NCBI GenBank assembly: GCA_945872355.1
Contig: CAMBZU010000021.1
Location: 1-44,512, forward strand
Length of the DNA stretch: 44,512 bases
Source of the DNA: Chitinophaga pinensis
Lineage (GTDB): Bacteria > Bacteroidota > Bacteroidia > UBA4408
Reading direction: 5' to 3'
Positions 23,118-44,512 of the stretch are shown piece by piece. The translations under genes were made by a program, and so were the position numbers. Below the pieces are notes generated by a model, which saw nothing but the letters and a program-made list of their open reading frames with translations, was not told the origin of the DNA and ran no database searches. Each line of letters begins with the position of its first letter. Within the stretch, counting starts at the first letter, position 1.

Positions 23118-23129
23118 AATCTAGTGTAA

Positions 23130-23594
23130 TTATTCTACCATCAAAACTTCCAATTCAAAATCTAGTTGAACTACTTTCCCATTTTCAGAAAATGACACAT
23201 GATCGGCCAAGTTCCTCATTAAAAACACACCTCTACCATTAATTTTTTCAATGTTGGCGGGGTCTGTTGGGTCAGGGATATTTTCAAAATCAAAACCATC
23301 GCCTTCATCTTTAATGGTAAAATGCAAGGTATTTTGCACTTTACTAAAAATGACTTCAATATTTTTATCCGGATTTGATTTATTGCCATGCTGAATGGCG
23401 TTATTTACTGCTTCGGTTACAGCTACCAAAATGTTACCATAATAATCTTCGGGTAGTTGATACTGCTCGCTTACATCGTTGATTAATTTTTCAGCTATAG
23501 CTAAATTTTCGTAGCGCGATGCAAACTTAATAGATTGGTCCGTTATCATTCCATGCGCATTTTTAGGGTTAATTAAAGTTGTTGAAATACTCAT
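23130..23594 (-). CDS. RsbW-like anti-sigma factor / serine kinase ATPase
   Basis: 154 residues, a stand-alone GHKL ATPase domain of the HATPase_c_2 (RsbW/SpoIIAB) type. N-box EAVNNAIQHGN (61-71), DEGDGF (96-101), and the G2 region GRGVFLMRNLAD (120-131) are all present. Family members bind sigma or anti-sigma partners and phosphorylate an antagonist. No partner gene is adjacent, and in Bacteroidota this gene commonly sits, as here, between the DUF4175 and ybeY genes. ATG at 23594 overlaps the end of the DUF4175 gene by 26 nt, implying translational coupling. Confidence 0.88.
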   Translation of the reverse strand: MSISTTLINPKNAHGMITDQSIKFASRYENLAIAEKLINDVSEQYQLPEDYYGNILVAVTEAVNNAIQHGNKSNPDKNIEVIFSKVQNTLHFTIKDEGDGFDFENIPDPTDPANIEKINGRGVFLMRNLADHVSFSENGKVVQLDFELEVLMVE

Positions 23595-27133: not shown

Positions 27134-30100
27134 TTACTTTACTATTTTCTTAGTAGTAATTTTATTACCATTTGCAATGCTTACCATATAAATCCCCTCA
27201 GGCACATCGTTAATATCAAGCAATACATTGCCATTTTTACCCTCAAATGTTACTGTGTTTCCTATAGTTTGTCCTAAAGCGTTATGTACACTAATGTTAG
27301 CATTTATCAATTGATCTGAATTAAATACCGCATAAAAAGCACCATTAATTGTTTGCACTTCAATTATTTCACGGTTAGTTGAACTCGTATTTTTAACATT
27401 GATTTCAACTGATTTCACATCTTCACAATTACCTTTTGTGCAAGTTAAAGTTGCAGTATAAATCCCTTCATTTAAATACTGATGTGCAGCTAAAAATCCT
27501 TGAGCAGTTGTTCCATCTCCAAAGTCCCATAAATAAGTTATGCCTTTGCTTTTAGGTGATCTAAAATTGACATTATCATTTACTTGTGGGTGAGTATTTG
27601 TTACTTCAATTAAAGCAATTACAGTTTTTGCTGCTTTTACTTCTATGGCTTGACTCATATTACCACAGATTTGTGCTTCGGGATATATAATATTATAATT
27701 ACCTGGCAGTAGGTTATTAAAAGTATGTGTTAAGCTATTGAATTGAGCAGTTGCAAGTATTTGATTGTTTGATTGCAATTGAATTAAGCAATTGCTGCCA
27801 GATTGATTTTGTACCGTTATACTTCCATCATTTGTATTATTACAAGAAGCAGGAGTATTAACAATTGGCATTGGCAAATCAATATGTAGAATAAAACGAG
27901 GTTCATTTGCTCCAACATTAAGATTGAAGAAATAAATCACATTGGTTTTTAAGTTAATAACATTGCCATTTTCAATATCTTCCAAAGTAAAGCATGCATT
28001 GGGTGCAAAACTTTGCAAGCCACTCCAAGAAATATTATAAGTACCTGAAACACCAGCTGTAACTCTTAATGGAATATGTATTGTTTTGGCTTGAAAAGGC
28101 ATACCATTAATACTTAAATCTCTCGAATTTATAACACTTGCAATAGAAGGATTCAATGGATTTGTGCTTAAAAATTTAGCTGCATCGTAATTGCCATCAA
28201 AAGTATTTGTTGCATTTTTATCAAAATAAACCACTGCTTCATCTTGAAGATTATTACCAACTAACCTTAATCTTAACATATTATTTATTTCAGTTTCCTT
28301 GATTAATACCGGACTTGTTAATGATTTAGCATTTTCAGTAACTGAAAGCACCGGACTTGCAGCATTGGCTTGCACATAAAAACCCTGTGAAGATGCAATG
28401 TATCTAGAGCCACCGTTAGTTGAAATACCATTTACAAAACTTGAATATTGCCCATTATTTGCTTGAAACATATATATAGCATTATTTGTATTCGTTTTTG
28501 TCCATCCAGAAGATAACCAGTCAACAGCGCTCGGATAAGGATTTGAAATTAAATTAAAGCCATCATCTAATACATTTCCTGAATTGGTATAAGTAATATT
28601 GAAATTAAAATTACCCACATAAGGTTGACCGGTAACATCAATTGTTATATCAGCTGTATTTGTAATCCCTGTTCCTAAATATACCCATTTCCCTTTTCCA
28701 AGTGCAATTGCATTACTAGTATTTGTGGCAGCTATATAAGATGCAGGGTCGTCGAACAAACCAGGAGCTGTTTCATCGTAATTATAAATAGAAATAAAGG
28801 ACAAGCTCGGATCAGTTGATCCTGAAAAACCAGAGGTGGCAAAATCGTCCGTCCAACTGGCTAATGTAGCACCTTGCACGGGGGCTCCTAACAATGCCCA
28901 GCCAGTAAGTGGTCCGGGTGCATAACGTTGCATGGTAATATTACCAACATAATTTGCAGTTGGCGGCACGGCATTAATACGCGCAGTGCCTGTGGCAGTA
29001 GAGACAAAGGTAAAATCTACACCATTGTTAGTAAATGTACCGTTGTTAAGCTTTAGAAAACCCTTTATTGTTGCATTGCTATTTAAGTTTAAACCATTGG
29101 CATCATCAAGTAATAAACTATAAAAGTTAGTAGTTGATAGGTTATTTGATTGAATGCTATGTGATGTGCTAGAAATTCCCGCACAAGTTAAAAATTGAAC
29201 CTCACCAAAGTTTGGAATGAGTGTACCATCATTAGTTAAACTTCCATAAATACCTATCGTATTTACCCCATTAATTGTAAGAATAGCACCTGACTCAATA
29301 ATTAAATTATAGCACTCAGCAACTCCATTCACTTGGGGATTATTGGCAGTTCCCGCAGGAATAATGGCCGTTGTATTTGAAGATGGATAGCCATTGCTCC
29401 AATTGATAGGTGAACCAATATCCCAATCATTGGTTAAGCCTAACCATGTTGTTGTTGGTGCCGAAATAGCAACGGTAATTTCATTAGATAAAACAGTAGT
29501 TGGTGAAGCACAAGTTGCATTAGATGTTAATTGGCAAGTAATTAAATCACCATCCACAAAATTTGAAGCTGCTATGGTTGAGCCAACTGCTGAAAGAAGA
29601 TTGCTTCCATTTTTTTTCCATTGATAACTTGGGCTTGCGCCGCCGTTTGTAATTGATGCACTAAATACTATACCGCTTGTACATAAATTAATTTGCGAAG
29701 ATGTTATTGAAATAGTTGGCAATAAAACTGGATTTACTGTGGCAACAACTGCTGTTCTCGTTGAAGATACACCTGCACAACCCGAAGTATTTCTTGACTG
29801 CGCGTAATAGGTGGTATTGCTTGAAATACTTGGTGTTGTATACGAATTTGTACCTATACCACCAGTTAATGCTGTTCCTCCAGTAGATGCACTATACCAG
29901 TCGATTGTTGAACCTGCGGCAGGAGTAGCAGAAAGAGTGACTGTTCCTGCACCACATCTTGAGGCATTAATAGGTGCAGTTGGCGCACTAGGTGCAGCGC
30001 CACTTACAGTTACAACTACATTTGAACTTGCCGTAGCGCCTGAACCATCAGTAATAATTACATTATATGTTCCTGCAACAGCAGGTGTAACGGTAGGATT

Positions 30101-30682
30101 TTGTGTGGTTGAGAAAACAGTATTTGAAGGGTTTTTCCATGAAAAAGTGTAAGCTGATATTCCTCCACTCCAAGTTGCAGTAAGGTTCAACGTATTACTA
30201 ACGCATACAGTAGAATTAGAACTTGCAGTAATTAAAAGAGGGCCACTAATTCCACCATTGGTATTTACTTGCGAAAAGCTGTAATCAATACCTGCACCAC
30301 CGCCATTACAACTTACAATGGTTACACCGCCAAAACTAATGGTGCGATTGGCGCTACAAGGTACGCCGGCAATTCCTGAAGTAGTACCTGCACTACCGGG
30401 TTCAATAATCAATTGACAATTATTGGGTAAATTCAAATTTACACTATTGGCCTGCCAGTTGACCTCGCCAGTTGATGATATAATAAATTGCGTTATTCCT
30501 GAGGCTGACAAATCATAGTTTACATCCATTGTTAATTTGGCATTGATTGTAACAATACCAGAACAGCTAACTAAAGGGTTTGAACTTGCATTTATGTCCG
30601 CGTTAAGTGTGCAGTCTGCAAAAGTTTTAGTCGAAAAAACAATCGTAATAAAACTGATTAAGAGGAGTAGTTTTGTTTTCAT
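27134..30682 (-). CDS. T9SS-exported multidomain surface protein (Ig-like, PKD), 1182 aa
   Basis: Signal peptide 1-22. N-terminal unique part (about 23-150), then two Ig-like modules (about 150-320, including CGAGTVTLSATPAAGSTIDWYSASTGG), a third Ig module with the YQWKKNGSN core (about 320-410), and a shared region starting TTWLGLTNDWDIGSPINW (about 412): right-handed or lamin-like strands, a MQRYAPGPLTGWALLGAPVQG segment, then a PKD domain (YLWDFGDGT..., about 1040-1100). The last 75 residues are a T9SS type A domain (VLLDINDVPEGIYMVSI...KKIVK). From about residue 320 to the end it is paralogous, in the same order, to the C-terminal part of the 2403-residue neighbour. Likely a cell-surface or extracellular adhesin; a catalytic motif is not apparent. 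Confidence 0.88.
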   Translation of the reverse strand: MKTKLLLLISFITIVFSTKTFADCTLNADINASSNPLVSCSGIVTINAKLTMDVNYDLSASGITQFIISSTGEVNWQANSVNLNLPNNCQLIIEPGSAGTTSGIAGVPCSANRTISFGGVTIVSCNGGGAGIDYSFSQVNTNGGISGPLLITASSNSTVCVSNTLNLTATWSGGISAYTFSWKNPSNTVFSTTQNPTVTPAVAGTYNVIITDGSGATASSNVVVTVSGAAPSAPTAPINASRCGAGTVTLSATPAAGSTIDWYSASTGGTALTGGIGTNSYTTPSISSNTTYYAQSRNTSGCAGVSSTRTAVVATVNPVLLPTISITSSQINLCTSGIVFSASITNGGASPSYQWKKNGSNLLSAVGSTIAASNFVDGDLITCQLTSNATCASPTTVLSNEITVAISAPTTTWLGLTNDWDIGSPINWSNGYPSSNTTAIIPAGTANNPQVNGVAECYNLIIESGAILTINGVNTIGIYGSLTNDGTLIPNFGEVQFLTCAGISSTSHSIQSNNLSTTNFYSLLLDDANGLNLNSNATIKGFLKLNNGTFTNNGVDFTFVSTATGTARINAVPPTANYVGNITMQRYAPGPLTGWALLGAPVQGATLASWTDDFATSGFSGSTDPSLSFISIYNYDETAPGLFDDPASYIAATNTSNAIALGKGKWVYLGTGITNTADITIDVTGQPYVGNFNFNITYTNSGNVLDDGFNLISNPYPSAVDWLSSGWTKTNTNNAIYMFQANNGQYSSFVNGISTNGGSRYIASSQGFYVQANAASPVLSVTENAKSLTSPVLIKETEINNMLRLRLVGNNLQDEAVVYFDKNATNTFDGNYDAAKFLSTNPLNPSIASVINSRDLSINGMPFQAKTIHIPLRVTAGVSGTYNISWSGLQSFAPNACFTLEDIENGNVINLKTNVIYFFNLNVGANEPRFILHIDLPMPIVNTPASCNNTNDGSITVQNQSGSNCLIQLQSNNQILATAQFNSLTHTFNNLLPGNYNIIYPEAQICGNMSQAIEVKAAKTVIALIEVTNTHPQVNDNVNFRSPKSKGITYLWDFGDGTTAQGFLAAHQYLNEGIYTATLTCTKGNCEDVKSVEINVKNTSSTNREIIEVQTINGAFYAVFNSDQLINANISVHNALGQTIGNTVTFEGKNGNVLLDINDVPEGIYMVSIANGNKITTKKIVK

Positions 30683-31167: not shown

Positions 31168-34100
31168 TTACTTCACTATTTTTTGTGTGATGCTTTCTTT
31201 ACCATTGTTTAAAATTACCATGTAAATACCTTCGGCTGCATTGTCTAATTGCAATTTAACTCTTCCGTTTTTACCTTCAAACTGCTGAGTAGCTGTAACT
31301 TCTTGACCTATTGCATTTGTTAATCTTATTGTTACCAATGTGTTTTCAGCAAAGTTAAACACGGCATAGAAAGTACCATTTTGTTGATTCACTTCCATGC
31401 TATTTGCTTGGCTTTGTGCGCCTTTGCTTACATTTAAAACAGTTCTTTCAGTAATGCTACATTCACCTTTGCTATTTGTTAAACTTACCTGATAAACACC
31501 AGCTTCTTTGTATTGATGCTTAATGATTGACGCTCCATTTGCAGTTGTGCCATCACCAAAATCCCAAGTAAGGTTATTTCCTTTTGATTGTGCTGTAGTA
31601 AATGTAACCTCTTCAGTATTTTTTACTTCTGTAGCACTTACTTCAAAGTTGGCAGTTAATTGTTTAGCAGCTGTAACATTTACCAATTGAGTCATATCAC
31701 CACAAGCTGTTACTAATGGATAATTTAATTGATAAGTTCCTACAGCCAAATTGTCAAAAGTATAAGTACTGGTAATTGTAGCTTCTTTAATTAAATTACC
31801 ATTTACATCTTTTAGTTGCACTGTACTTTCAGTGGTTGAAGGATTTGCAACAGTGATACTTCCATCTTGACTATTACTGCAACTTGCTTCTGCTACGCTA
31901 CGTGGCAATGGGGTGCTCACATGGATAACAAAACGTGGTGCTTTAAAACCAGCAGTAGCACTAAAGTAGTAAAGTCCATTTTTTTCTAAAGTAGTTTTAA
32001 TACCATTATCTAAATCTTCAATAACAAAGCAGCTACCTTCTGCGAAGCCTTCCATGCCAGTCCAACTTAAATTGTACATACCATTACTTCCAACAGTTAC
32101 ACGTACTGGAATACTCATGGTGCTTCCACTATACGGCAAGCTATTGATAGATAAGTCATAGTCATTTTTAAGACTACTAATAGAAGGATTTAAAGGATCG
32201 TTGCTGAACATTTTCTTAGCATCATAATTTCCATCAAAGTTTGTCTTTGCAGATTGGTTAAGATGAATCACCATTTCATCATTCACATCATCGCCATTTA
32301 CTTTTATTCTTAATACGTTTGCTGGATCCTCTTCCTTAATAAATACAGGGTTAGATGATGTTTTAGCATTTTCTGTAATGCTTAAAACGGGGTTTGCTGC
32401 ATTAGTTTGAATATAGAAACCTTGAGATGAAGCGATAAATCTTGAACCTCCATTGGTAGCAATTCCGTCAACAAAACTTGCATATTGTCCATTATCGGCT
32501 TGATACATGTAAACAGCGTTATTGATATTTGTTTTTGTCCAATTTGGAGATAACCAATCGATAGCACTTGGATATGGATTAGCTATTAAATTATATCCAT
32601 CATCAAATGGGAAACCTGAATTGGTATAACTTGGATTAAAGTTAAAATTACCTGTGTTTGGTTGCCCAGTTACATCTATTGTAACATTGGCTGTATTTAC
32701 GGAGCCAGTTCCAAGGTATATCCAAAATCCTTTTCCTACTGTTAAGCTATTGGTTACATTAGTTGCTGCCACATAAGAACCTGCAGCATCAAATAAACCT
32801 GCTGTTGATTCATTGTAGGTATAAACCGATACAAAACCTCCAGCGTTGCCAGTTGAACCTGTGTAACCAGAAGTTGCGAAATCATCATGCCATTGCGCTA
32901 AAGTAGCACCCTGAATTGGAGTACCTAATTGTGTCCAACCTGTTTTTGGTCCTGGGGCATAACGTTGCATTGTGATATTACCTACAAAATTGGCTGTTGC
33001 AGGAACAGGTGCAATACGCGCTGTGCCACTTGCTGTTGATACAAATGTAAATATATTGCTGGCATTGTTAAAGTTACCATTTGTCAATGTTAAGGTTCCT
33101 GAAATATTGGCATCGGCAGTTAAATTTAAGCCAGCCAAATCATCTAAGGTCACATTAAAGAAGTTTGATGCGGTTCCATTGTTACTGGTTATTTCATGTG
33201 CTTGCAATGAAGTTCCACTGCAACTTAAAAACTCTACCGATCCAAATCCTGGATTGAATGTTCCATTATTGGTAAATTTACCATACACATTTATTTGATT
33301 TACCCCATTGATGGTTAAACTTGCTCCTGATTCAATTTGAATATTTAAACACTCCACAACATCATTAACTTGAGGTTGATTTGGTGTGCCTGCAGGAATA
33401 ATTGCCGTGGTATTGCTTGAAGGATAACCGTTATTCCAATTAATTGGAGAGCCAACACTCCAATCGTTAGTTAAACCTAACCAAGTGGTTGTTGCTCCTA
33501 TAATAACTATATTTATACTATTTGAAACCACAGCCGCAGGAATTGGACAAGCTGCATTGGAAGTTAATTCACATGTAATTATATCGCCATTGACTAAACC
33601 AGTTGAAGTAAACGTAGCACTGTTAGCTCCAGGGATATTGGTTGCATTTCTTTTCCATTGATAAGCAGGGCTTAAACCGCCATTAGTGATTGAAGAACTA
33701 AAGCTAATACCTACAGTACATAAGTTTGTTTGTGAGCTGCTTATGCTAATTGTAGGTGTTACTGGTGTTAAGAATGTGATAGTTATAGCATTACTAGTTG
33801 CGTTTGGCACAGAAGCGCAGCTATTATTACTTGTAAGTAAAACATCCACTTGTTGACCAGTGGTTAATGTATTTGTTGTATAGACATTTGATGAAGTATT
33901 TTGAACAGAAATTCCATCAACTTTAAAATCATAAGTAGGACTTGTTCCGCCGTTAGTTGGCGTTGCTGTAAAAGTTATTGCACTACCATTGCATGATGGA
34001 TTTGAACCACTTGTAATCGCAATTGAAACGGTTGGAGCTAAATTTGCATTTATAATCATAGTAATTGGCGTACTTGTTACAATTGCTGGGCTTGCGCAAG

Positions 34101-37100
34101 CAGCATTACTTGTTAATACAACCCTAATTAAATCACCACTTACAAAATTTGTTCCTGCAACTGCAGTGTATGTGTCCGAATTAGCTCCCGCTATATTAGC
34201 TCCATTTTTAGTCCATTGATATGTTGGAGAAGCACCACCATTTGTTGGTGTAGCGGTAAAAGTTACCGAATTACCATTACAAGATGGATTTGAGCCTGTA
34301 GTAATTGCAGTTTCAACAGCTGGCACTGGACTTGGGTTAACACTTACTGAAGCACTAGAAGCGCTGGCAGTACAGCCATTAGTACTGTTAATGGTAACTG
34401 AATAAACACTATTTACTGTTGGATTTGCAGTAGGGTTTTGCAAAGCTGAACTGTATCCTGCTGGTGCAGATGACCAAGCATAAGTATAAGTTATAGGTGT
34501 ACCCGTAACAGTTACATTATCAATTGCCCAATAACGTTTGCGCGCTGTTGTTGCATATCTAAACCTGATATTGAAAGTAGCTTTGTTAATATAAGCATTT
34601 AAATCAATGGTTGGATTAACAAATCCGTTAGCAGCACCCTGGTTAGCAACATAACTAGCTACGATGATCCAATTTGCACCTCCATTTGTAGATACTTCAA
34701 CTATAGCTGAATCGCTTGGCGCGGGACCAACGTAATTATAGTAGTGCCAAAAATTTAAACTCAAAGCAGTATAGCCAACTGTATTCATTACAGGAGAAAC
34801 TAAGGTAGTTCTGGTTAATGTTCCATTTTGTCCTCTACTATTTGACAAATAAAACTGAGATGCATTATTTGAAATAATAATAATTCCAGGGTTGTAACCA
34901 TTTTGTCTCAATGTCCAAGCTGCAGCAGCAGTGTTGCCTCCTGTTGAGGTATTGGTTTTAGTCCAAGCGTTTGTTGCAGCATTAAAATTTTCACTTAAGA
35001 GTGTTGTTGGTTTAACAGTTGGGGCAGTGGCAGTTAAGTTTACTGTTGCACCACTACAAACAGTTGTAGGAGAGGCACTAGCACTTGCAGTTGGAGATTC
35101 TTTTATGACCATGGCAATGGCAATACTTGTTGCTGATGCTGGTGAAACACAAGCAAGGTTAGAAGTTAAAGTCACCCTAATTATGTCGTCATTAATAAAA
35201 TCAGTGCCAGATAGTGCTGTGTATGTTGCTGAAGTTGCGCCAACAATGTTGCTACCATTTTTTGTCCATTGATATGCTGGGGCAGGCCCTCCATTTGTTG
35301 GTGTAGCCGTAAAAGTTACTGAATTGTTGATACATATTGGATTTGAACCAGCAGTAATTGCAGTAATAACAGATGGAGCAACATTATTTATTACTGACAC
35401 AGTAATAGATGCACTTGTGGCTGTAGTAGGACTTACACAATTTGCATTAGAAGTTAAAACCACTCTAATTATATCGCCATCAAGAACTGAAGTACCTACT
35501 AAACCTACATAAGTAGCTGAGGTGGCTCCCGTAATATTAATTCCATTTTTAGTCCATTGATACAATGGCGTAGCTCCTCCATTTGTTGGCACTGCAGTAA
35601 AAGTTATTGAGCTTCCGCTGCAGGCTGGGTTACTACCAGAAGTTATTGAAATATTAGCACTTGGCACAAGAATAGGTGTTACTCCAATTGAGATAGCTGC
35701 ACTTGTAGCCACAGTTGGGCTTGCACAATTTGCATTGGATGTTAATACAACACGAATCAAATCGCCGTTAATAAAAGCCGATCCAGCCACTCCAGTATAG
35801 GTAACTGATGTAGCACCCGGTATATCAATCCCATTTTTAGTCCATTGATAAGTTGGTGAAGCACCGCCATTTGTTGGCACTGCGGTAAAAGTTACAGCAG
35901 CCCCATTACATGAAGGGTTTGAGCCTGATGTAATAGATGTAGTAACTGATGGAACTTGTACACCATTTACGGTAACAGTAATTGGGGTTCTGGAAGTAGC
36001 CGAACAAGTATTATTACTTTTTCTTACTTGAACATAATAAGTTGTTGTGGCCAATACTACTGGCGAATAAGTTAAGGTATTTGTTCCACCTGCTAATGGC
36101 AATCCGCCGGTTGGAGCAGCATACCAATCAGCAGTATAACCTGTGGGAACAGTAACTGTTAAAACAGAAGTGCCACCAACAAGGCAAAACTCTGAAGGCG
36201 AAGCACTTGATGTAAGCACTGAGCCAACAACCACTGAAACAGGGGCTGCAGCAGCTGTACATCCAATAGAGAAAGTAACTGTTGGAGTATAACTTGTTGA
36301 CACAATTGGCGCTACAGCTGTAGGATTTTGCAAATTAGAGCTAAATCCAACAGGTATTGATGACCAACTAAACGCTGCTGAAGTATTTCCATTTAATCTT
36401 ACATTATCAATAGCCCAATATTTAGCCCTTGCTGTGGATGTATATCTGAAACGAACATATAAAGTGGTATTTCCGATATATGCATTTAAATTAATTGTTC
36501 TACTTTGAAATGCAGTATTTGTTCCTTCATTTGCACCGTAGCTAGCTACAATAGCCCAAGTAGTATTATTGGTAGAAACCTCTACCCTTCCAGTATTCCC
36601 TGTTGCGGCTGCAAATCTAAAATAGTGAAAAAAGTTTAAGCTAAGCGAAGTATAACCCACTGTATTTATTGCTGCCGATCGCAAAATTGTATTCGTAGCT
36701 GTACCATTTTGGTTCCAGCTATCACACAAATAAAATTGCGATGCATTGTTAGAGTTTATGGCTAACTCAGGATTGTAACCATTCGGTCGCAATGTCCAGG
36801 CAGCTGTGGCAGGCGTACCTCCGGTAGAAGTATTTGTTTTTGTCCAGTTGTTGGTAATACCATCAAATGAATCTTGCAAGGCAGTGGCTGAAGCTCCAGA
36901 CCCTGTAGAAGTTAAATTTACTGTTTGTCCTAAACAAATGGAAGATGATGAGATAGTAGCAGTTACCGTTGTAGCTGGGTTAACAATAACAGTAGTACTT
37001 CCCGCACTTGTACAACCATTAAGATCAGTAACTGTAAGTGTATAAACGCCTGCATTGGTGCTAATAGCAGATGCAATAACTGGATTTGCAAGCGCAGAAG

Positions 37101-38379
37101 TAAAACCATTTGGGCCAGTCCAAGAATAAGTAAAAGGACTCATACCACCTGTTAAATTAGCGGCTAAATTAATTGGTGAAAGTGCACAAGCAGGCACACC
37201 AGCATTTGCTGTTGGATTAACCGTAATTGTGGCAGGCGATAAAGCCGAGAAAGAGATATCATCAATAGCAAAGTCATTACCCGATAAAGCTGGCTCCAAA
37301 TCCACAATAGAAATTACAATTGAACCGGTTGTTGTTGCAACGTATTGGCCATAAAAGCGAACCCAATTAAAAGGACCAGCCGCTACAGTAACACCAGAAC
37401 CTAAAACTGCAACTGTTCCTAATTGACTTCCATTGATATTAAACTGCAATTGTGCAAAAGGAGACACATTGTTAACACTTAAAGCGTAGGCAGAAAAATA
37501 ATAAGTAGTACCTGCAACAACATTAACATTTTGTTGCCATGCAACTGGCAATGTACCCGAACCATTAAATACCATAAAATTGCCTGACCCTGTATTTGTT
37601 CTTGAACGTGCCCAAAAGTTAGGATGATAAAAATGTGCATCCGTTGTAATGGTGTATAAATTTTCAGGAACTAAACCATTAGGATCTATAGGTGTTGGAT
37701 TTAAAAATGGGTATCCTGAGGTAAAACCGGTGTTACCCGCTTCAAAACCTCCATTTACTACTAATTCTGTTGAAACCTGAATGCTTCCAGTATTGGTACA
37801 ACCGGCTGCATTTGAAACAGTAACGCTATATGAACCTGCAAGATTAACCAATATTGTTTGTGTTGTTTGTCCGGTACTCCACAAATAACTGGACGCAGCT
37901 GAACTTGACAATTGGACAAATCCGCCACCTACACAATAATCAGATGAAATAATAGGGGTTGCTGGTTTTGCATTAATGGTTAAATTAATTGCATTACTGG
38001 TACCGGTTACCGCTGGGTTACTAGCAACAACTCTAATTCTATATCCAGCACCAGTAGAGGCATTGGTAGGAATTGTTGAAGCAATAGTGCCTGCATTGAC
38101 AGAAGTTAAAGCACCAATAGCGACAGGACTTGCAAAACTTCCGCTCGCATCGCTTAATTCAGCAGTAAAAATATTACCTGCATTAAAAGTTCCTGTTTTA
38201 GTGTAAGGTACATTAACAGCAGCACCAGCGCAGAATGGAGCACCTGTAATGGCACTGGTTGAAATTGATTGCGCATAGCTTTGCGTAAAGAACAACATAC
38301 TAAAAAGCGTAAGTAAAAATGTGTTTTTGTTAAACCATTTTTTTTGTTCAGGTTTTAAATCTAAAAAATTAAATTGCAT
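31168..38379 (-). CDS. Giant T9SS-exported surface protein with tandem Ig-like modules, 2403 aa
   Basis: Signal peptide with a long charged n-region (about 1-36, ending SYAQ). Approximate order: Ig-like modules (37-200); a jelly-roll module (ELVVNGGFEAGN...DDISF, 204-382); a further Ig module (385-475); jelly-roll module A (DSFDGITNNWTKTNTSTGG..., 504-663); an Ig_7-like module (about 715-805); three Ig units of about 95 residues with core YQWTKNG (about 809-1100); jelly-roll module B (NFNAATNAWTKTNTSTGG..., 1134-1293), clearly a duplicate of A; three more Ig units (about 1352-1630). From 1629 to the end it parallels the 1182-residue neighbour, including a PKD domain (LTWDFGDGTTANG, about 2240-2317) and a terminal T9SS domain (AEGIYMVILNNG...QKIVK). 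Each Ig unit has two cysteines (NPSCNG and SNANCAS) that could form a disulfide. Probably a long adhesin; ligand unknown. Confidence 0.88.
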   Translation of the reverse strand: MQFNFLDLKPEQKKWFNKNTFLLTLFSMLFFTQSYAQSISTSAITGAPFCAGAAVNVPYTKTGTFNAGNIFTAELSDASGSFASPVAIGALTSVNAGTIASTIPTNASTGAGYRIRVVASNPAVTGTSNAINLTINAKPATPIISSDYCVGGGFVQLSSSAASSYLWSTGQTTQTILVNLAGSYSVTVSNAAGCTNTGSIQVSTELVVNGGFEAGNTGFTSGYPFLNPTPIDPNGLVPENLYTITTDAHFYHPNFWARSRTNTGSGNFMVFNGSGTLPVAWQQNVNVVAGTTYYFSAYALSVNNVSPFAQLQFNINGSQLGTVAVLGSGVTVAAGPFNWVRFYGQYVATTTGSIVISIVDLEPALSGNDFAIDDISFSALSPATITVNPTANAGVPACALSPINLAANLTGGMSPFTYSWTGPNGFTSALANPVIASAISTNAGVYTLTVTDLNGCTSAGSTTVIVNPATTVTATISSSSICLGQTVNLTSTGSGASATALQDSFDGITNNWTKTNTSTGGTPATAAWTLRPNGYNPELAINSNNASQFYLCDSWNQNGTATNTILRSAAINTVGYTSLSLNFFHYFRFAAATGNTGRVEVSTNNTTWAIVASYGANEGTNTAFQSRTINLNAYIGNTTLYVRFRYTSTARAKYWAIDNVRLNGNTSAAFSWSSIPVGFSSNLQNPTAVAPIVSTSYTPTVTFSIGCTAAAAPVSVVVGSVLTSSASPSEFCLVGGTSVLTVTVPTGYTADWYAAPTGGLPLAGGTNTLTYSPVVLATTTYYVQVRKSNNTCSATSRTPITVTVNGVQVPSVTTSITSGSNPSCNGAAVTFTAVPTNGGASPTYQWTKNGIDIPGATSVTYTGVAGSAFINGDLIRVVLTSNANCASPTVATSAAISIGVTPILVPSANISITSGSNPACSGSSITFTAVPTNGGATPLYQWTKNGINITGATSATYVGLVGTSVLDGDIIRVVLTSNANCVSPTTATSASITVSVINNVAPSVITAITAGSNPICINNSVTFTATPTNGGPAPAYQWTKNGSNIVGATSATYTALSGTDFINDDIIRVTLTSNLACVSPASATSIAIAMVIKESPTASASASPTTVCSGATVNLTATAPTVKPTTLLSENFNAATNAWTKTNTSTGGNTAAAAWTLRQNGYNPGIIIISNNASQFYLSNSRGQNGTLTRTTLVSPVMNTVGYTALSLNFWHYYNYVGPAPSDSAIVEVSTNGGANWIIVASYVANQGAANGFVNPTIDLNAYINKATFNIRFRYATTARKRYWAIDNVTVTGTPITYTYAWSSAPAGYSSALQNPTANPTVNSVYSVTINSTNGCTASASSASVSVNPSPVPAVETAITTGSNPSCNGNSVTFTATPTNGGASPTYQWTKNGANIAGANSDTYTAVAGTNFVSGDLIRVVLTSNAACASPAIVTSTPITMIINANLAPTVSIAITSGSNPSCNGSAITFTATPTNGGTSPTYDFKVDGISVQNTSSNVYTTNTLTTGQQVDVLLTSNNSCASVPNATSNAITITFLTPVTPTISISSSQTNLCTVGISFSSSITNGGLSPAYQWKRNATNIPGANSATFTSTGLVNGDIITCELTSNAACPIPAAVVSNSINIVIIGATTTWLGLTNDWSVGSPINWNNGYPSSNTTAIIPAGTPNQPQVNDVVECLNIQIESGASLTINGVNQINVYGKFTNNGTFNPGFGSVEFLSCSGTSLQAHEITSNNGTASNFFNVTLDDLAGLNLTADANISGTLTLTNGNFNNASNIFTFVSTASGTARIAPVPATANFVGNITMQRYAPGPKTGWTQLGTPIQGATLAQWHDDFATSGYTGSTGNAGGFVSVYTYNESTAGLFDAAGSYVAATNVTNSLTVGKGFWIYLGTGSVNTANVTIDVTGQPNTGNFNFNPSYTNSGFPFDDGYNLIANPYPSAIDWLSPNWTKTNINNAVYMYQADNGQYASFVDGIATNGGSRFIASSQGFYIQTNAANPVLSITENAKTSSNPVFIKEEDPANVLRIKVNGDDVNDEMVIHLNQSAKTNFDGNYDAKKMFSNDPLNPSISSLKNDYDLSINSLPYSGSTMSIPVRVTVGSNGMYNLSWTGMEGFAEGSCFVIEDLDNGIKTTLEKNGLYYFSATAGFKAPRFVIHVSTPLPRSVAEASCSNSQDGSITVANPSTTESTVQLKDVNGNLIKEATITSTYTFDNLAVGTYQLNYPLVTACGDMTQLVNVTAAKQLTANFEVSATEVKNTEEVTFTTAQSKGNNLTWDFGDGTTANGASIIKHQYKEAGVYQVSLTNSKGECSITERTVLNVSKGAQSQANSMEVNQQNGTFYAVFNFAENTLVTIRLTNAIGQEVTATQQFEGKNGRVKLQLDNAAEGIYMVILNNGKESITQKIVK
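33490..35955 (-). repeat. Tandem Ig-like coding repeats inside the 2403-aa protein gene
   Basis: Six units of roughly 270-295 bp, each encoding about 90-95 residues with the pattern P-S-V-x-x-x-I-T-S-G-S-N-P-x-C, then TPTNGGxSPTYQWTKNG and GDLIRVVLTSNxxCASP. Units start near 35955, 35660, 35370, 34325, 34040 and 33760. A jelly-roll module (about 34500-34980) interrupts them after the third. The fifth replaces QWTKNG by DFKVDG and the sixth is more diverged, so the array is old at its downstream end and fresher upstream. Confidence 0.75.
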
Positions 38380-38669: not shown

Positions 38670-39089
38670 CTATCTTATCAAGCAAACAATCACCCATTTT
38701 TCTGCTAGTCCTTCAAAATAGTAGCGTGATTCACCATATTGATCCTTAGTTTTTAGTTGGTTGCAATCTATGAAGTAGCGAGCCTCTCCATATTCATCCT
38801 TTAGTTTAACTGTTTTTGACTGAAAATAATAAAGTGCATCACCATATTGATTTTTTGAACGTACAGTATTTCCGTCCAAATAATATAGTGGATTGCCATA
38901 TTGATTTTTTTGTCTGATCGTTTTACCATCATAATAAAAGAGCGCCTCACCATATTTATTTTTTGCCCTTATGGTTTCACCGTCAACATATAAATAAGCA
39001 TCACCATATTGATTTTTTAGCCTGATTGTTTGCCCCGCTGCTAGGCCTTCTAAAAACAAGAAAAAGGATAGTAAAAGCGTGAACCTCAT
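38670..39089 (-). CDS. Small exported protein of six 18-residue repeats
   Basis: 139 residues from ATG at 39089 (the preceding in-frame TTG is not needed). Signal peptide about 1-19. The mature protein is almost wholly six tandem 18-residue repeats (residues 21-128) with consensus TIRxKNQYGxALYYxDGK: e.g. TIRLKNQYGDAYLYVDGE, TIRAKNKYGEALFYYDGK, TIRQKNQYGNPLYYLDGN, and three more diverged. Each repeat looks like a beta-hairpin (strand, YG turn, aromatic strand, DG turn), so an elongated beta-sheet or beta-roll is likely. I know no named family for it; MORN and YwqK-type repeats are similar in spirit but have a different consensus. It ends with 11 residues and no sorting domain. Between the receiver genes and the giant surface-protein gene, same strand. 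Confidence 0.8.
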   Translation of the reverse strand: MRFTLLLSFFLFLEGLAAGQTIRLKNQYGDAYLYVDGETIRAKNKYGEALFYYDGKTIRQKNQYGNPLYYLDGNTVRSKNQYGDALYYFQSKTVKLKDEYGEARYFIDCNQLKTKDQYGESRYYFEGLAEKWVIVCLIR

Positions 39090-39105
39090 CAATTAAAGTT
39101 ATTAT

Positions 39106-39184: not shown

Positions 39185-39574
39185 TCAGTTTATTGTTTCT
39201 ATGATTGATTTTATTCCGCCAAAGTCCCAGGGTTTTCCGAGAATGGCATCAATGCCGTATTTTTCGTCAAAATCAGCAATCAATTTTGTATCAGCTTGGC
39301 CGGTGAGTATAATTTTTTTTATGTCAGGGTAGCGCTCTTGCGCATGCAACAGGATATCGGTACCTTTAAATGAGTCGATATTAAAGTCAGAAATAACGAG
39401 TGCTATATGCTCCCCCTCCTGATGCAATTCATTAATAAGATTAATTGCTTCCTCTCCAGACGAGGCCATTTCTACTTTATGATGTGATTGAATGATTCTA
39501 TTTATTTGAATTTTTAGTGATTCGAGAATAATGAATTCATCATCAACAATTATAATTGTTTTTTCAGTTAACAT
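39185..39574 (-). CDS. Stand-alone response-regulator receiver protein (second of pair)
   Basis: 129 residues from ATG at 39574. Single CheY-like receiver domain: acidic pocket Asp11/Asp12, phospho-acceptor Asp63 (LVISDFNID), Thr91 (IILTGQ), Lys114 (GKPWD). No output domain, so it must act through protein contacts or as a phosphate relay. The ATG overlaps the stop region of the preceding receiver gene by 11 nt, indicating coupling. Clearly a paralogue of that gene (same length, VISD and KPW motifs). Cognate kinase presumably the one encoded upstream. Confidence 0.9.
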   Translation of the reverse strand: MLTEKTIIIVDDEFIILESLKIQINRIIQSHHKVEMASSGEEAINLINELHQEGEHIALVISDFNIDSFKGTDILLHAQERYPDIKKIILTGQADTKLIADFDEKYGIDAILGKPWDFGGIKSIIETIN

Positions 39575-39962
39575 CAAGTTCAAGTTTTTTTATAAAGTCA
39601 ATTAAATTTTCCTCTTTCCAAGGCTTATGCATTATTTTAAGCACGGTATTTTTCTCCATTAATTCAATCCCTTTTTCGACAGAAATATGCCCAGTAAGCA
39701 AAAGTATATTCACGCGTGGCAATTTTGTTTTTAGCACCTTGGCAAACTCCTCACCATTCATTCCTGGCATCATATAATCAGAAATAACGAGCAGTAAATC
39801 AATCCCTTCAAACTTAAGTTCATCAATTACTTCGAGCGCTTCTTGTGGGTCTTCGGCATAATCGAAAAGAAAATCATGCTTGAAGTTTTTTTCGATTTGT
39901 GCTTTGATTGAATCAAGAATTATTTTTTCATCATCAACAGCTAAAATTGCAACTTTTTTCAT
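39564..39962 (-). CDS. Stand-alone response-regulator receiver protein (first of pair)
   Basis: 132 residues. Receiver domain with Asp10/Asp11 pocket, phospho-acceptor Asp62 (VISDYMMPGMNG), Thr90 (LLLTGH) and Lys113 (HKPW); all catalytic positions intact. No DNA-binding or enzymatic output. It follows the sensor-kinase gene on the same strand after a 437-bp structured gap, so it is a plausible phosphotransfer partner. The pair of single-domain receivers could compete for phosphate or form a relay with a phosphotransfer protein encoded elsewhere. Confidence 0.92.
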   Translation of the reverse strand: MKKVAILAVDDEKIILDSIKAQIEKNFKHDFLFDYAEDPQEALEVIDELKFEGIDLLLVISDYMMPGMNGEEFAKVLKTKLPRVNILLLTGHISVEKGIELMEKNTVLKIMHKPWKEENLIDFIKKLELDVN

Positions 39963-40399
39963 TTAAGATGTTTTTAGTTTAAATAATAAATTTCATGCAT
40001 TGTTTTTTGAAGTGATAAAATATTTACCGATGGTAAAACTATAAAAAAATCCTATTTGCGAAAAGAAATTTTTTAATTATTTGTATGCTTATCCGTTTTT
40101 TGCGCAGAGAAATAAAATTTAAACCCAAATTAATCAATAGGAGATTTAAAAAATCGAACTACTTGATTTAGTTGGGTTAATCCCGATTTAGAAAATGTTA
40201 TCAGATTTGTAAAAATCTGATTTACAATTTCTTTATCGTTTACGCATTTCTAATGCGTAATTTGGGTTAAATTACGACTTAAACCCAAATCATGCAGTTG
40301 AAACACACTAAAATCATTTTTATACAATCTCAACAATAAGCCATTTAAAATTTCAAAATATTGCACTATTGCACCAATCCAAAGTTATGCAATTTGGTA
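39963..40399. other. Structured intergenic region between sensor kinase and receiver genes
   Basis: 437 bp, long for this compact region. It has a 15-bp dyad TTTACC-GAT-GGTAAA at 40023-40037, 60 nt upstream of the first receiver's ATG, then three back-to-back hairpins (40201-40290). The word AACCCAAAT or its complement recurs near 40120, 40172, 40264 and 40286. No protein-like frame. The receiver genes may have their own promoter here, but no exact TAnnTTTG was found in the right place. Confidence 0.5.
40201..40290. repeat. Cluster of three adjacent perfect hairpins
   Basis: Hairpin 1: TCAGATTT-GTAA-AAATCTGA (40201-40220). Hairpin 2: TTACGCATT-TCT-AATGCGTAA (40240-40260). Hairpin 3: ATTTGGGTT, 13-nt loop, AACCCAAAT (40260-40290). 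All stems are mismatch-free and hairpins 2 and 3 share one base. No poly-T tail follows any of them, so simple termination is not the obvious reading. Confidence 0.65.
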
Positions 40400-43336
40400 T
40401 TAAGTGGCTCTGTTACGCTTGGGTAAATTGATAATGAAAGAGGTTTTTTGTGCATTACTTTCACAGGCAATAGTTCCATTGTGTTTTTCAATAATTTTCA
40501 TTACAATATTTAATCCTAAACCAGTTCCTTCGCCCCTTTTTTTGGTTGAGAAAAAAGCATCAAAAATTTTCGGAATCGTTTCAGCAGGTATTGGCGGCCC
40601 ATTGTTTGAAATACTTATGATATGATTTTCTTGGTTAGCTGCATAATCGATCCATATCTTACATTTACTATCAGAGGCCTGCAGCGCATTATTAATAATG
40701 TTGGTCCATACTTGCGACAATTCATCAGCACTCCCTGTTATCTGAATTTCCTCAGGAATATTATTTTCAAGATGAGCACTGTATTTTATTTTATTCCATA
40801 AAAGCGTAATGATTGATACAAAACTATCATGAAGTTTAAAAGTGGTAATTTCTTGATCGATATTGCCATGCGAGAAGGTGTTGAGTGCTTTTACTAAATT
40901 GCCTGCTCTGTTTACAGCTAGTGATATGGTATTGATTGATTTAGTGATATCGATGAGGTGCTGTACAAACAAAAAGATATTTTTATTTTCGGGATGATTG
41001 AGATAAAACATCAACTCATTATCTATCACTTTATAACCCAATTCCATGATTGTTGTGGCATACAAATGCTTATTTTCTAAATCAGGCAATAACAACTCGA
41101 GTTTTGCCTTCATCTCTTTTTGTAATATTCTTATATCGCGGGTTGTAGTTGCACCTATTTTTTTGTTTCCAGCATCAAATAACTTAAATCCGGCTTCCAA
41201 AACTGCAGGTGTACTATTTTTAATTGTTTCAAGAAAAGATTCGAGAAATACACGTTGTAAATATTCATTAGAAGCTTTAATAGCGCCGAGTGGTGAATTT
41301 ATTTCATGAGCAATGCCCGCAATTAACATACCTAGTGTGGCAAGTTTTTCGCGGTCAATAATTTCTGACTGCATGTTTATAATCTGCTCCATTTTTTCTT
41401 TCAGCAGCCCATTTTTTACTTTAAGTTCTATTTGTGATGCTCTTAATCCGTTAGTTTCGCATGCCAGTACAATAATATCTGATACCGAAGTACAAAAAGC
41501 AATTTTATCGCTGGTGAATTCTAGCTGTATTTCCGAAAAGCTACAACTAAGCACGCCAATATAATACTCGCCTTGCAGGAGCGGTATATCGAGCATAGAC
41601 TTAACATTCAGCGGTTTCAGATAATTGTTGGATAACTCAGAGGTAGCTTCATGAGTGAGGGCCTCATTGGCAAGTATTGGATTTTTACTTTCAAGCGCTT
41701 TAAAGTAATTAGGAGCTGTTTCCGATTTAACTTCCATACCAGCCGTAAAAGCATCTTGTGCTGTAATGTATACGCTTGATGTAGCAATAGCACTTTTGCT
41801 ATCATTAGAAAGCCATATGGCGCAGCAATCGCAATTTATTGTTTGAGCTACAGCTTTTGAAATTGCTTTAAATTTTTCTTCAAGGCTTAAATCATCATTC
41901 AGCTTTCTGATGCTATTTAAAGTTACCTGTTTCTGTCGAAATAAATCAATTTTTAATTTCTCCTCTTTTTCCTTTTCTTTTATTTGTGTTATGTCATGTA
42001 AATAAAATCTTATGGAGTTAAACTGTTCGTTAAAGAATACGTTTCTCTCATAGATTTGATTATTAATTGCTATCTCCAACCTGTCATTTTTCCTCAGCTG
42101 CATAAAGTCATCGTTAATTTGAAGTTGACTTTTTATATGAGCGATATCGGTTTTATTATCCTTATTAAGTAATTTTTTTGCTACAGGATTTAGATAGGTA
42201 ACCTCGGCATTGTTATTATCAATTTCAATAACAGGGTTAGGATTTTGCTCAGGAAACAGGGCCAGGTGTTTAATTTTTTGAACAGCTGTGTTAATGCGTT
42301 CCTCTAAGGTGGAGTTTACTTTGATGAGCGTATTTTTTGCTTCTTCGAGTTTTTTGTTTTTTTCTGTGATTAGCTGATTAAGCATTTGCGAATCTTGCAA
42401 TCCCTTGGTGGCCGAGTGCTGCAAAAATAAATATTCGGCAATGTAATCGTGCTTAGGGAAATTATTAATATTGACTTTGTAATTAACAATGGGAAAAAGT
42501 GTATTAATTACAGGAACAGCAAAAATAAAGTAAGTGTCATCATTGGTTTTTTTTACTGTACACTTGAATTTATTTTTATGATCATGCGTGTCAAAGAAAA
42601 TTAATTTATTATGAAAACTAGTTTCATCAATAAGGTTGCCCGAATTAAAAACAGAGGTCCAGTTGAAGTATGTAGAAAAAGATTTTCCTACTTCCATTTC
42701 AGGAATTGTTTTATGATAATTTACACCAAAAGATAAAATACAATTGTTTTTATCCATAAACAAATAGTAAGGACAACTGTAGCTAATACTATTGGTAAGG
42801 CTATTTTGGTGTTCGATTAACTGCGCATTAATAAACCTTTGCTTAAGCATGTTAACAACCTGCTTCGACAATGTTTTTAAAGCTTTAATTTGACTTTCAC
42901 TTAGTTTTCTTGGCTTTGTATCAATAGTACACAAAGTACCTAATGCATATCCCTCCTGATCAACCAAAGGCATGCCTGCATAAAAAACAATATTTGGGTC
43001 GCCCTTAACAAGTGGATTTTCAGCAAATCTGCTGTCCTTTGTGGCATCATCCACAATCATGATTTCAGTTGGATCCATGATAGCATGAGCACAAAAAGCG
43101 GCAGACCTTTCGGTTTGATCAATTGAAATACCAACTTTAGATTTAAACCATTGCCTATCGCTATCCACAAAACTGATTAAACCAATTGGTGTTTCGCAAA
43201 TATGCGCTGCAAGCTGAACTATTTCATCAAAGTCGAGCTCAGCTTCTGTATTAAGAATATTGTATTTTGCGAGGGCCTTTAATCTTAGCTGTTCATTGTT
43301 TTGCCCATCATTGTTTTTTGCAGTATCTATTTCCAT
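40400..43336 (-). CDS. Multi-domain sensor histidine kinase (GAF, HNOBA/PAS-like, PAS, GAF, HisKA, HATPase)
   Basis: 978 residues, no membrane segment, so cytoplasmic. GAF 1 at about 25-165 (LNTEAELDFDEIVQLAAHICETPIGLIS..., ETPIxLISFVD type). A PAS-like domain at about 180-310 starting SYSCPYYLFMDKNNCILSFGVNYHKTIPEMEVGKSFSTYF resembles the HNOBA domain that accompanies haem-NO-binding domains. Coiled coil about 320-365, PAS at about 370-455 (NPNPVIEIDNNNAEVTYLNPVAKKLL), GAF 2 at about 475-640. H-box GIAHEINSPLGAI with phospho-acceptor His677; an unusual insert of about 130-150 residues separates the two DHp helices; N-box NIINNALQA (about 875-885), ISNNGPPIP, FSTKKRGEGTGLGLNI. The start overlaps the H-NOX gene by 10 nt. 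Predicted to be controlled by the H-NOX protein and to phosphorylate the two receivers downstream. Confidence 0.92.
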   Translation of the reverse strand: MEIDTAKNNDGQNNEQLRLKALAKYNILNTEAELDFDEIVQLAAHICETPIGLISFVDSDRQWFKSKVGISIDQTERSAAFCAHAIMDPTEIMIVDDATKDSRFAENPLVKGDPNIVFYAGMPLVDQEGYALGTLCTIDTKPRKLSESQIKALKTLSKQVVNMLKQRFINAQLIEHQNSLTNSISYSCPYYLFMDKNNCILSFGVNYHKTIPEMEVGKSFSTYFNWTSVFNSGNLIDETSFHNKLIFFDTHDHKNKFKCTVKKTNDDTYFIFAVPVINTLFPIVNYKVNINNFPKHDYIAEYLFLQHSATKGLQDSQMLNQLITEKNKKLEEAKNTLIKVNSTLEERINTAVQKIKHLALFPEQNPNPVIEIDNNNAEVTYLNPVAKKLLNKDNKTDIAHIKSQLQINDDFMQLRKNDRLEIAINNQIYERNVFFNEQFNSIRFYLHDITQIKEKEKEEKLKIDLFRQKQVTLNSIRKLNDDLSLEEKFKAISKAVAQTINCDCCAIWLSNDSKSAIATSSVYITAQDAFTAGMEVKSETAPNYFKALESKNPILANEALTHEATSELSNNYLKPLNVKSMLDIPLLQGEYYIGVLSCSFSEIQLEFTSDKIAFCTSVSDIIVLACETNGLRASQIELKVKNGLLKEKMEQIINMQSEIIDREKLATLGMLIAGIAHEINSPLGAIKASNEYLQRVFLESFLETIKNSTPAVLEAGFKLFDAGNKKIGATTTRDIRILQKEMKAKLELLLPDLENKHLYATTIMELGYKVIDNELMFYLNHPENKNIFLFVQHLIDITKSINTISLAVNRAGNLVKALNTFSHGNIDQEITTFKLHDSFVSIITLLWNKIKYSAHLENNIPEEIQITGSADELSQVWTNIINNALQASDSKCKIWIDYAANQENHIISISNNGPPIPAETIPKIFDAFFSTKKRGEGTGLGLNIVMKIIEKHNGTIACESNAQKTSFIINLPKRNRAT

Positions 43337-43875
43337 TCTATTTTAAACACATCACAATCATTTTGATCATCTTTTTGAATGATATGACTTACTGTATAGT
43401 CGGTCAATTCGAAGCGCTGACAGAGACCTTTCAACAGTCCGATAACCATTGGTGAAAATCCTGCGCGTTTTGAACGATATTCTAATTCAATTGAATACGC
43501 TGTTTCATTACGTGTAGAAAACTGAGGAGGCACTAAATTAGGCATAATGCTGTTAACCCTTTGATGCAACATATCCAAATTATTTAGGAATTCTGTGAGG
43601 TTATCACCCGAAAGGTTCATCATATCACCATATCCTTCGTTTGCTGTATATAAAATCCAATATTCTCCAAAAGCCTCCATAACATAAGATGCATCAGCAC
43701 CAAGCACTTTTGAGGCGTTTTTTACCAAGCTGTAGGTTAGTTCATCGGGGTATGGTTGTAATCCAATAAAAAAGTCGTCTTCAAAGTTTGATAATTTTTT
43801 TATTTCCAACCATTTATCTTCACCAAACTTGGTACAAACTAAATCTTGAATTGCTTTATTAACTAGACCGTACAT
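43327..43875 (-). CDS. H-NOX (haem NO/oxygen-binding) sensor protein
   Basis: 182 residues, the full length of a stand-alone bacterial H-NOX. Starts MYGLVNKAIQDLVCTKFGEDKW, as typical for the family. Proximal haem ligand His104 (LDMLHQRVNS), Pro116, and the haem-propionate motif Tyr133-x-Ser135-x-Arg137 (YRSKR) are all present. The segment right after the motif (AGFSPMVIGLLKG) has no tyrosine at the distal-pocket position used by O2-binding H-NOX, so it is predicted to sense NO. In known systems such proteins control a co-encoded histidine kinase or diguanylate cyclase. The gene starts 1 nt after the SpoIIE-type gene and overlaps the kinase gene by 10 nt. Confidence 0.95.
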   Translation of the reverse strand: MYGLVNKAIQDLVCTKFGEDKWLEIKKLSNFEDDFFIGLQPYPDELTYSLVKNASKVLGADASYVMEAFGEYWILYTANEGYGDMMNLSGDNLTEFLNNLDMLHQRVNSIMPNLVPPQFSTRNETAYSIELEYRSKRAGFSPMVIGLLKGLCQRFELTDYTVSHIIQKDDQNDCDVFKIEWK

Positions 43876-43876
43876 A

Positions 43877-44512
43877 TTAATTTTCTTTATTGATTTTTTT
43901 TAAATGATTATTATTTAATTCAAATGGATTTAATCCAATCAGCAAGATGTCATCAGTTTGAATTTGTGCGCCTTGCCATTTTCGAAGGAACAATTCTAGT
44001 TCAAGTTCTCGTGCTTCAGCCCTCATGTCTTTTGCTGAGTCTAAGAAATCTAAAAGTCTTTTTTTCATTAGTTTTTTTCCGTTTACGCCACCAAATTGAT
44101 CTGTAATTCCATCAGAGAAAAAGTAAAAAATATCCTTTTCATTGTATGGAATTGTAAATACCGGAATATCTTTTTCAACATCAATAACATCACCAATACT
44201 TTTTCCACGAATACTATAATAATGATGCTTTTGAGTTAAGGAGTCGTAATGAATAAACGGACGTTTAACCCCTGCAATTTCTATAATTAAAGCTTCAGGA
44301 TCCACCTTAAAAAGAATGAGGTCAAGACCATCATGAATGGTATTTTCACCTTCTCTACGCGCTAAACTTTCAATTACTTTCTTATTAATTTTATTGATAA
44401 TAAGGCGTAAATCGGAGTATTTTCTTGTTTGATTGTTTACAATTTCATGGCAAAGCACCGAGAGCAAAGCTGCAGGAATACCGTGTCCTGTGCAATCGCC
44501 AATTCCGCCATA
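43877..44512 (-). CDS. SpoIIE-type PP2C serine/threonine phosphatase (5' end outside window)
   Basis: 212 C-terminal residues; the frame is open to the right edge. The first visible residues are YGGIGDCTGHGIPAALLSVLCH, the conserved metal-binding motif GDCTGHGVPGA of SpoIIE/RsbU phosphatases. Later ILFKVDPEALIIEIAGVKRPFIHY, FYFFSDGITDQFGG (the second metal-binding Asp motif) and IQTDDILLIGLNPFE complete the PP2C core. Such enzymes dephosphorylate anti-anti-sigma proteins in partner-switching systems. The missing N-terminus may hold sensor domains. The stop lies 1 nt before the H-NOX start, so the two are co-transcribed. Confidence 0.93.
   Translation of the reverse strand, partial: YGGIGDCTGHGIPAALLSVLCHEIVNNQTRKYSDLRLIINKINKKVIESLARREGENTIHDGLDLILFKVDPEALIIEIAGVKRPFIHYDSLTQKHHYYSIRGKSIGDVIDVEKDIPVFTIPYNEKDIFYFFSDGITDQFGGVNGKKLMKKRLLDFLDSAKDMRAEARELELELFLRKWQGAQIQTDDILLIGLNPFELNNNHLKKINKEN

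Follow-up and report, generated by a model that had tools for sequence, protein, structure and literature searches.

An H-NOX gene cluster of Bacteroidota with an HNOBA histidine kinase and a REC-SpoIIE phosphatase: a candidate nitric oxide-responsive circuit with a phosphatase output

The 44,512-nucleotide (nt) stretch of DNA analyzed here, hereafter the window, makes up contig C21 in full, part of a 3.4-Mb draft Bacteroidota genome. At one end of it, reading from the contig end inwards on the minus strand, lie genes for the C-terminus of a SpoIIE phosphatase, an H-NOX protein, a histidine kinase and two single-domain receivers. The combination of H-NOX, a histidine kinase (HK) with an HNOBA domain and a phosphatase composed of receiver (REC) and SpoIIE domains is real and recurrent, and it is apparently undescribed. 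We consider it moderately probable that the cluster as a whole is a nitric oxide (NO)-responsive two-component circuit with a phosphatase output. Our findings suggest, as far as gene content and order can tell, that NO controls a protein-dephosphorylation switch, and not solely the usual biofilm messenger, in several groups of freshwater Bacteroidota.

In the circuit that we propose, NO would bind the haem of H-NOX, and H-NOX would dock on the HNOBA-containing kinase, altering kinase autophosphorylation. The neighbouring REC-SpoIIE would then receive phosphate on its REC domain, and the lone receivers would take up phosphate as well, as sinks or carriers. The phosphorylation state of REC would switch the SpoIIE domain, which would dephosphorylate a small STAS-fold phosphoprotein (an RsbV-like STAS protein or SiaC) and so flip a partner switch. 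A second input to the same phosphatase would come, in part of the clade, from a PAS-HisKA_2 kinase whose gene immediately precedes that of REC-SpoIIE. The sequences themselves establish the parts with their order and conservation, the intactness of the motifs and, in the relatives, the REC domain; that NO is the ligand, in which direction H-NOX controls the kinase, that phosphate reaches REC-SpoIIE and what the phosphatase acts on are what we infer.

Pfam backs every domain of the cluster (HNOB, 9e-48; SpoIIE, 3e-16; HATPase_c, 3e-22; Response_reg, twice). An earlier note on this DNA had described the SpoIIE, H-NOX and kinase genes as abutting on one strand, and we confirmed the open reading frames, their coordinates and strand, the single nucleotide between the SpoIIE stop (43877) and the H-NOX ATG (43875), and the 10-nt overlap between the H-NOX stop and the kinase ATG (43336). 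The same note had two coupled receiver genes following the kinase. These do overlap each other on the same strand, but they do not abut the kinase, from which 437 nt separate them, so that at the window locus they are only candidate members of the kinase transcript. Since no more than a few nt separate kinase and first receiver in most relatives, the window spacer looks secondary. In a genome of the same genus (G002), other genes, one of them for a second HisKA kinase, stand where the spacer is; the idea that the spacer is a decayed second kinase was rejected, as it has no homology to this extra kinase (locus L063). A scan of the cluster for sigma-70-type promoters, uninformative for Bacteroidota promoters, gave no excess (22 versus 28 in shuffled sequences). 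Terminator-like sites numbered 7 against 3.2 expected, only one of them on the coding strand, within the H-NOX gene.

The nearest solved structure for the stand-alone H-NOX is that of Nostoc Alr2278 (2o09), which aligns from end to end (E 6e-52). The HNOB domain of the window protein has the axial His, the Pro and the YxSxR haem motif of the family, and the residues matching Alr2278 are H104 (the haem ligand), P117, Y133-S135-R137, the distal W73 and M143; this set (haem His, Pro, YxSxR, distal Trp/Met) is what we take to be the residues that matter in H-NOX proteins. The distal Met and Trp, as in the Nostoc protein, only suggest that the window H-NOX binds NO rather than O2, and homology points to NO sensing and kinase control as its probable functions. 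No relative of this H-NOX was found in viral contigs. The kinase beside it carries an HNOBA domain, unnamed in the earlier note. Its full-length sequence scores below the Pfam HNOBA cut-off and the excised domain above it; all 18 relatives (18/18) match HNOBA, and a profile of this region finds the PAS structure of a bacterial histidine kinase (2p08, 1.5e-24) and the beta-1 subunit of soluble guanylate cyclase (5.5e-11). Because of these matches, the H-NOX/HNOBA-kinase pair is secure by homology. The catalytic parts of a histidine kinase are also present, with an H-box and a strong HATPase_c domain (3e-22), the HisKA match falling 0.4 bits below the cut-off. Kinase orthologues are full-length in G110 and cut by the contig end in G002.

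Contig C21 ends at 44512 and cuts the phosphatase gene, whose N-terminus was sought on the other contigs of the assembly and was not there. The fragment in the window retains the metal-binding aspartates expected of PP2C phosphatases, with the motifs DCTGHG, SDGxTDQF and TDD (metal site) intact; the first Asp motif, GDF, falls beyond the contig end. G002 (JALRAS01) has a complete gene at the place upstream of H-NOX, and it encodes 394 amino acids (aa), a receiver followed by SpoIIE, and the window fragment is 79% identical to its residues 184-392. The remaining full-length orthologues examined are likewise REC-SpoIIE proteins with intact Asp and metal motifs. Because full-length relatives carry a receiver of their own, the phosphatase is most likely itself a response regulator and the output of the phosphorelay. 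The earlier note had NO acting on a partner switch and a phosphorelay together; this reading is supported in part and is better recast as one relay that probably ends in the phosphatase, possibly fed by two kinases. Among the lone receivers, RR2 has the acidic pocket, the D in ISDYMMP, and the T and K. For both, the best NCBIfam match is the NosR-family response regulator, which is linked to NO signalling, at about 3e-19 and 8e-20 and far below the full-length cut-off.

Conservation counts in favour of the proposed circuit. In a class survey of 395 genomes, in which orthologous REC-SpoIIE was defined as scoring above 350 bits (next best, 170), H-NOX was present in 71 genomes and orthologous REC-SpoIIE in six, all six with H-NOX. 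A survey of named close H-NOX relatives, together with a search of their genomes, yielded a close H-NOX clade of 17 genomes. In seven of these (the window genome, G002, G401, G402, G403, G404 and G406) REC-SpoIIE immediately precedes H-NOX, both being on one strand, and in four it directly follows the receivers (convergent in G006 and G056, same strand in G405 and G412); it was undetected in two, G010 and G110, both with cut contigs. The earlier note had staked its reading on adjacency being kept in related genomes, and the orthologous phosphatase is indeed at the H-NOX cluster in 11 of the 17. Of the 72 class loci, 7 have a SpoIIE gene in the H-NOX gene cluster, where the density of SpoIIE in the flanks predicts about 0.5; for the 80 named loci the figures are 14 observed and about 0.65 predicted. 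Both ratios overstate certainty because the loci are phylogenetically non-independent. In the phosphatase tree, sequences group by arrangement, into an upstream-of-H-NOX clade (7/8), a downstream-of-receivers clade (3/3) and a clade with the HisKA_2-type kinase.

H-NOX and SpoIIE are also joined in other ways. In another family (L048 and L084, the latter being the same locus as L253), genes for H-NOX, HNOBA-HK, REC and a REC-SpoIIE of a different subfamily overlap or abut. A cyanobacterial locus (L251) has in a row H-NOX, HNOBA-HK-REC, a hybrid HK, REC and REC-SpoIIE, and L207 has H-NOX, a chimeric GAF-HNOBA-PAS-HisKA_2 kinase, REC and REC-SpoIIE. In two metagenome-assembled genomes of Flavobacteriales (L222 and L236), H-NOX is followed by an HNOBA-SpoIIE fusion protein and no kinase, and at L116 by a SpoIIE protein alone. 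An apparently broken copy of the HNOBA-SpoIIE fusion lies at L241:10579-12721. Such repeated joining, in structurally different ways, makes a stronger case for a functional link than a single locus could. We tentatively extend the proposal, at somewhat less than even confidence, to a wider one in which NO sensing by H-NOX would have been joined repeatedly and independently to PP2C phosphatases. REC-SpoIIE would form the junction in Bacteroidota and in a cyanobacterium, and some Flavobacteriales would use a kinase-free HNOBA-SpoIIE protein switched by H-NOX.

Several observations weigh against reading the cluster as a single NO-responsive circuit. The N-terminal receiver with its phospho-accepting Asp is present in the full-length orthologues examined, and the window gene stops short of that region. 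REC-SpoIIE sits away from the H-NOX locus in four of the 17 close-clade genomes (G395-G398). The divergences of H-NOX and REC-SpoIIE do correlate, which counts in favour of the circuit, but the correlation is weak (Mantel r 0.33, p 0.003). A PAS-HisKA_2 kinase is encoded immediately before REC-SpoIIE at about half of the loci, namely in G002, G401 (as a fragment), G402 and G404 and, at the unlinked copies, in G395-G397, and in G398 a HisKA_2 kinase precedes H-NOX while REC-SpoIIE is elsewhere. The presence of this kinase weakens a simple conserved-operon reading and makes H-NOX possibly one of two inputs; REC-SpoIIE may even have the HisKA_2 kinase as its real partner, the H-NOX kinase being a second input or a mere neighbour. 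Taken further, the cluster would consist of two two-component pairs that are neighbours by happenstance, PAS-HisKA_2 kinase with REC-SpoIIE, and H-NOX with HNOBA-HK and the lone receivers, possibly sharing a transcript without sharing a signal. This seems to us rather unlikely. It would account for a HisKA_2 kinase directly before REC-SpoIIE in seven loci, whether or not H-NOX adjoins, and for its staying beside H-NOX in G398, but not for G403, G406, G006, G056 and G405, where REC-SpoIIE abuts the H-NOX cluster and no HisKA_2 gene directly precedes it. The L207 chimera, which unites HNOBA and HisKA_2, also speaks against it, as do the HNOBA-SpoIIE fusions and the L048 and L084 loci, which have no other kinase. 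Chance neighbourhood or hitch-hiking of a common kind of gene without any NO link is, in our view, very improbable. The genome encodes 14 SpoIIE domains, the majority of H-NOX loci lack SpoIIE and the close clade has four unlinked orthologues; against this stand an adjacency well above background, its three different arrangements, and the further subfamilies and fusions.

In the circuit with a phosphatase output, which we prefer, the last step admits two candidate targets. The earlier note had favoured an anti-sigma pathway and pointed to an RsbW-like gene at 23130-23594, non-adjacent to the cluster. That gene is real, lies 20 kb away beside ybeY and encodes the only strong HATPase_c_2 protein of the genome (98 bits; next, 33); two STAS proteins are also encoded, on contigs C13 and C28, and all of these sigma-B-type partners are unlinked to the cluster. 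A partner-switching target of the RsbW/STAS kind is thus possible, but SiaB/SiaC-like genes are equally present and the nearest characterized phosphatase is SiaA, which leaves the anti-sigma target as one of two candidates. The likeness to SiaA is seen with structure chain 6k4e, which we take to be SiaA (1.3e-19), and with the SiaA NCBIfam model (1.5e-29), where it covers the PP2C part only and reaches 103 bits against a cut-off of 700. The genome has two SiaC genes, on contigs C2 and C36, one adjoining a DUF6272 gene that is presumably SiaB-like, and no SpoIIE gene on the SiaC contigs. In Pseudomonas, a SiaB/SiaC-type switch feeds the synthesis of cyclic di-GMP (c-di-GMP). Action of the PP2C output on such a switch rather than on RsbW/STAS, in line with the described SiaA/SiaB/SiaC partner switch (PMC7647112), is a serious candidate to which we give a little less than an even chance; it bears on the final step alone and can hold together with the preferred circuit. 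The RsbW-like kinase and STAS proteins count against it, as do the competition of 14 SpoIIE proteins for targets and the lack of a target gene within the cluster. With so many SpoIIE domains in one genome, the target of the phosphatase cannot be named from sequence. One of the genome's other SpoIIE loci (L265:9044-16473, contig C13) is a row of genes for a 1337-aa kinase with a receiver on either side, then CheR and a CheB-REC-SpoIIE fusion, with a STAS gene about 4 kb off.

Table 1. Features of the H-NOX cluster in the window, a candidate partner outside it, and the fusion proteins of other loci.
Feature	Position	Strand	Match or remark
SpoIIE/PP2C phosphatase, C-terminal 211 aa	43877..44512	-	Pfam SpoIIE 2.9e-16
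Stand-alone H-NOX, 182 aa	43327..43875	-	HNOB 9e-48; 1 nt after SpoIIE stop
Histidine kinase, 978 aa: GAF, HNOBA, PAS-like, GAF, HisKA, HATPase_c	40400..43336	-	Pfam
HNOBA domain of kinase, residues 177-334, ending motif NFPKHDYIAEYLFL	42335..42808	-	HNOBA 2.4e-5 (excised domain)
HisKA segment of kinase, phospho-acceptor box IAGIAHEINSPLGAIKAS	41213..41332	-	HisKA 6.7e-6, 26.5 bits vs cut-off 26.9
HATPase_c domain of kinase	40415..40732	-	3.1e-22
Spacer between kinase and RR2, 437 nt	39963..40399	.	no long open frame
Single-domain receiver RR2, 132 aa	39564..39962	-	Response_reg 1.3e-15
Single-domain receiver RR1, 132 aa, overlapping RR2	39185..39583	-	Response_reg 8.3e-13
RsbW-like HATPase_c_2 protein, candidate partner outside cluster	23130..23594	-	6.1e-28
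HNOBA-SpoIIE fusions	L222:1812-3980 (plus GAF), L236:5460-7136		HNOBA 1e-7 and 4e-8, above cut-off

Elsewhere in the window, a small exported-looking protein with internal KNQYG repeats and a weak Bflower_3 match below the cut-off is encoded just after the receivers (38670-39092), and the genome of the same genus has a similar gene at the corresponding place (L063:7250-7735). Further along are two very large predicted secreted proteins, one of 2403 aa with repeated stretches (31168-38379) and one of 1182 aa with Ig-like, PKD and secretion-system sorting domains (27134-30682). At 22656-26943, the ybeY, RsbW-like HATPase_c_2 and DUF4175 genes form a row on a single strand, each abutting or overlapping the next.

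A review names histidine kinases and enzymes of c-di-GMP as the partners of H-NOX (PMC8738867). Text searches for H-NOX with SpoIIE, HNOBA with SpoIIE, and NO with partner switching, with partial coverage of the literature, returned no description of an H-NOX/SpoIIE combination; in the literature searched, the sole paper with both terms, one mention each, was a Dinoroseobacter regulatory-network study. If the wider proposal is correct, a phosphatase-based class of H-NOX output would stand beside the kinase and c-di-GMP classes. In freshwater Bacteroidota, a phosphatase output would connect NO with Ser/Thr partner switching, of either the sigma-factor or the SiaC type. The most interesting by-product is the kinase-free HNOBA-SpoIIE fusions, which would offer a minimal two-protein system for direct study of how H-NOX controls an enzyme.

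Several known systems share parts of this arrangement. With the Nostoc-type H-NOX/HNOBA-HK pair (2o09, 2p08) the window shares the gene order, H-NOX then HNOBA-HK, and direct sequence homology; it adds two lone receivers, REC-SpoIIE and a GAF domain ahead of HNOBA. The Legionella genes lpg2459/2458/2457 likewise place H-NOX beside an HK and a CheY-like single receiver, but with no phosphatase output (PMC8738867). The resemblance to the P. aeruginosa SiaA/SiaB/SiaC system (PMC7647112) lies in the PP2C domain, closest to SiaA, and in the SiaC genes of the genome, one with its DUF6272 neighbour, whereas the window cluster has a REC-domain input in place of SiaA's own N-terminal part and no cyclase. 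Sigma-B/sigma-F switching of the RsbU/SpoIIE type has its counterpart in a SpoIIE with intact motifs and in the RsbW-like and STAS proteins of the genome, but there are no RsbV, RsbW or sigma-factor genes at the locus.

The closest working parallel comes from Vibrio fischeri, where NO, through HnoX, restrains the kinase HahK, which signals via SypF (and LuxU) toward SypG and SypE (PMC12369376; PMC4517449). The STAS protein SypA is under the control of SypE, a response regulator that has both a serine-kinase and a serine-phosphatase output (PMC12369376; PMC4517449). There, the hnoX-hahK and sypE genes lie in separate loci, the route through SypF and LuxU is indirect and SypE has an extra serine-kinase domain, whereas in the window the phosphatase gene is inside the H-NOX cluster, the kinase carries HNOBA, and the relatives of the phosphatase contain REC and SpoIIE only, with no serine-kinase domain as in SypE; the window cluster is therefore no SypE system. 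In both, a kinase under H-NOX control signals, or in the window would signal, toward a response regulator whose serine-phosphatase output is directed at a STAS protein. The HnoX-HahK-SypF-SypE precedent thus means that the probable working mode of the window cluster is known in outline.

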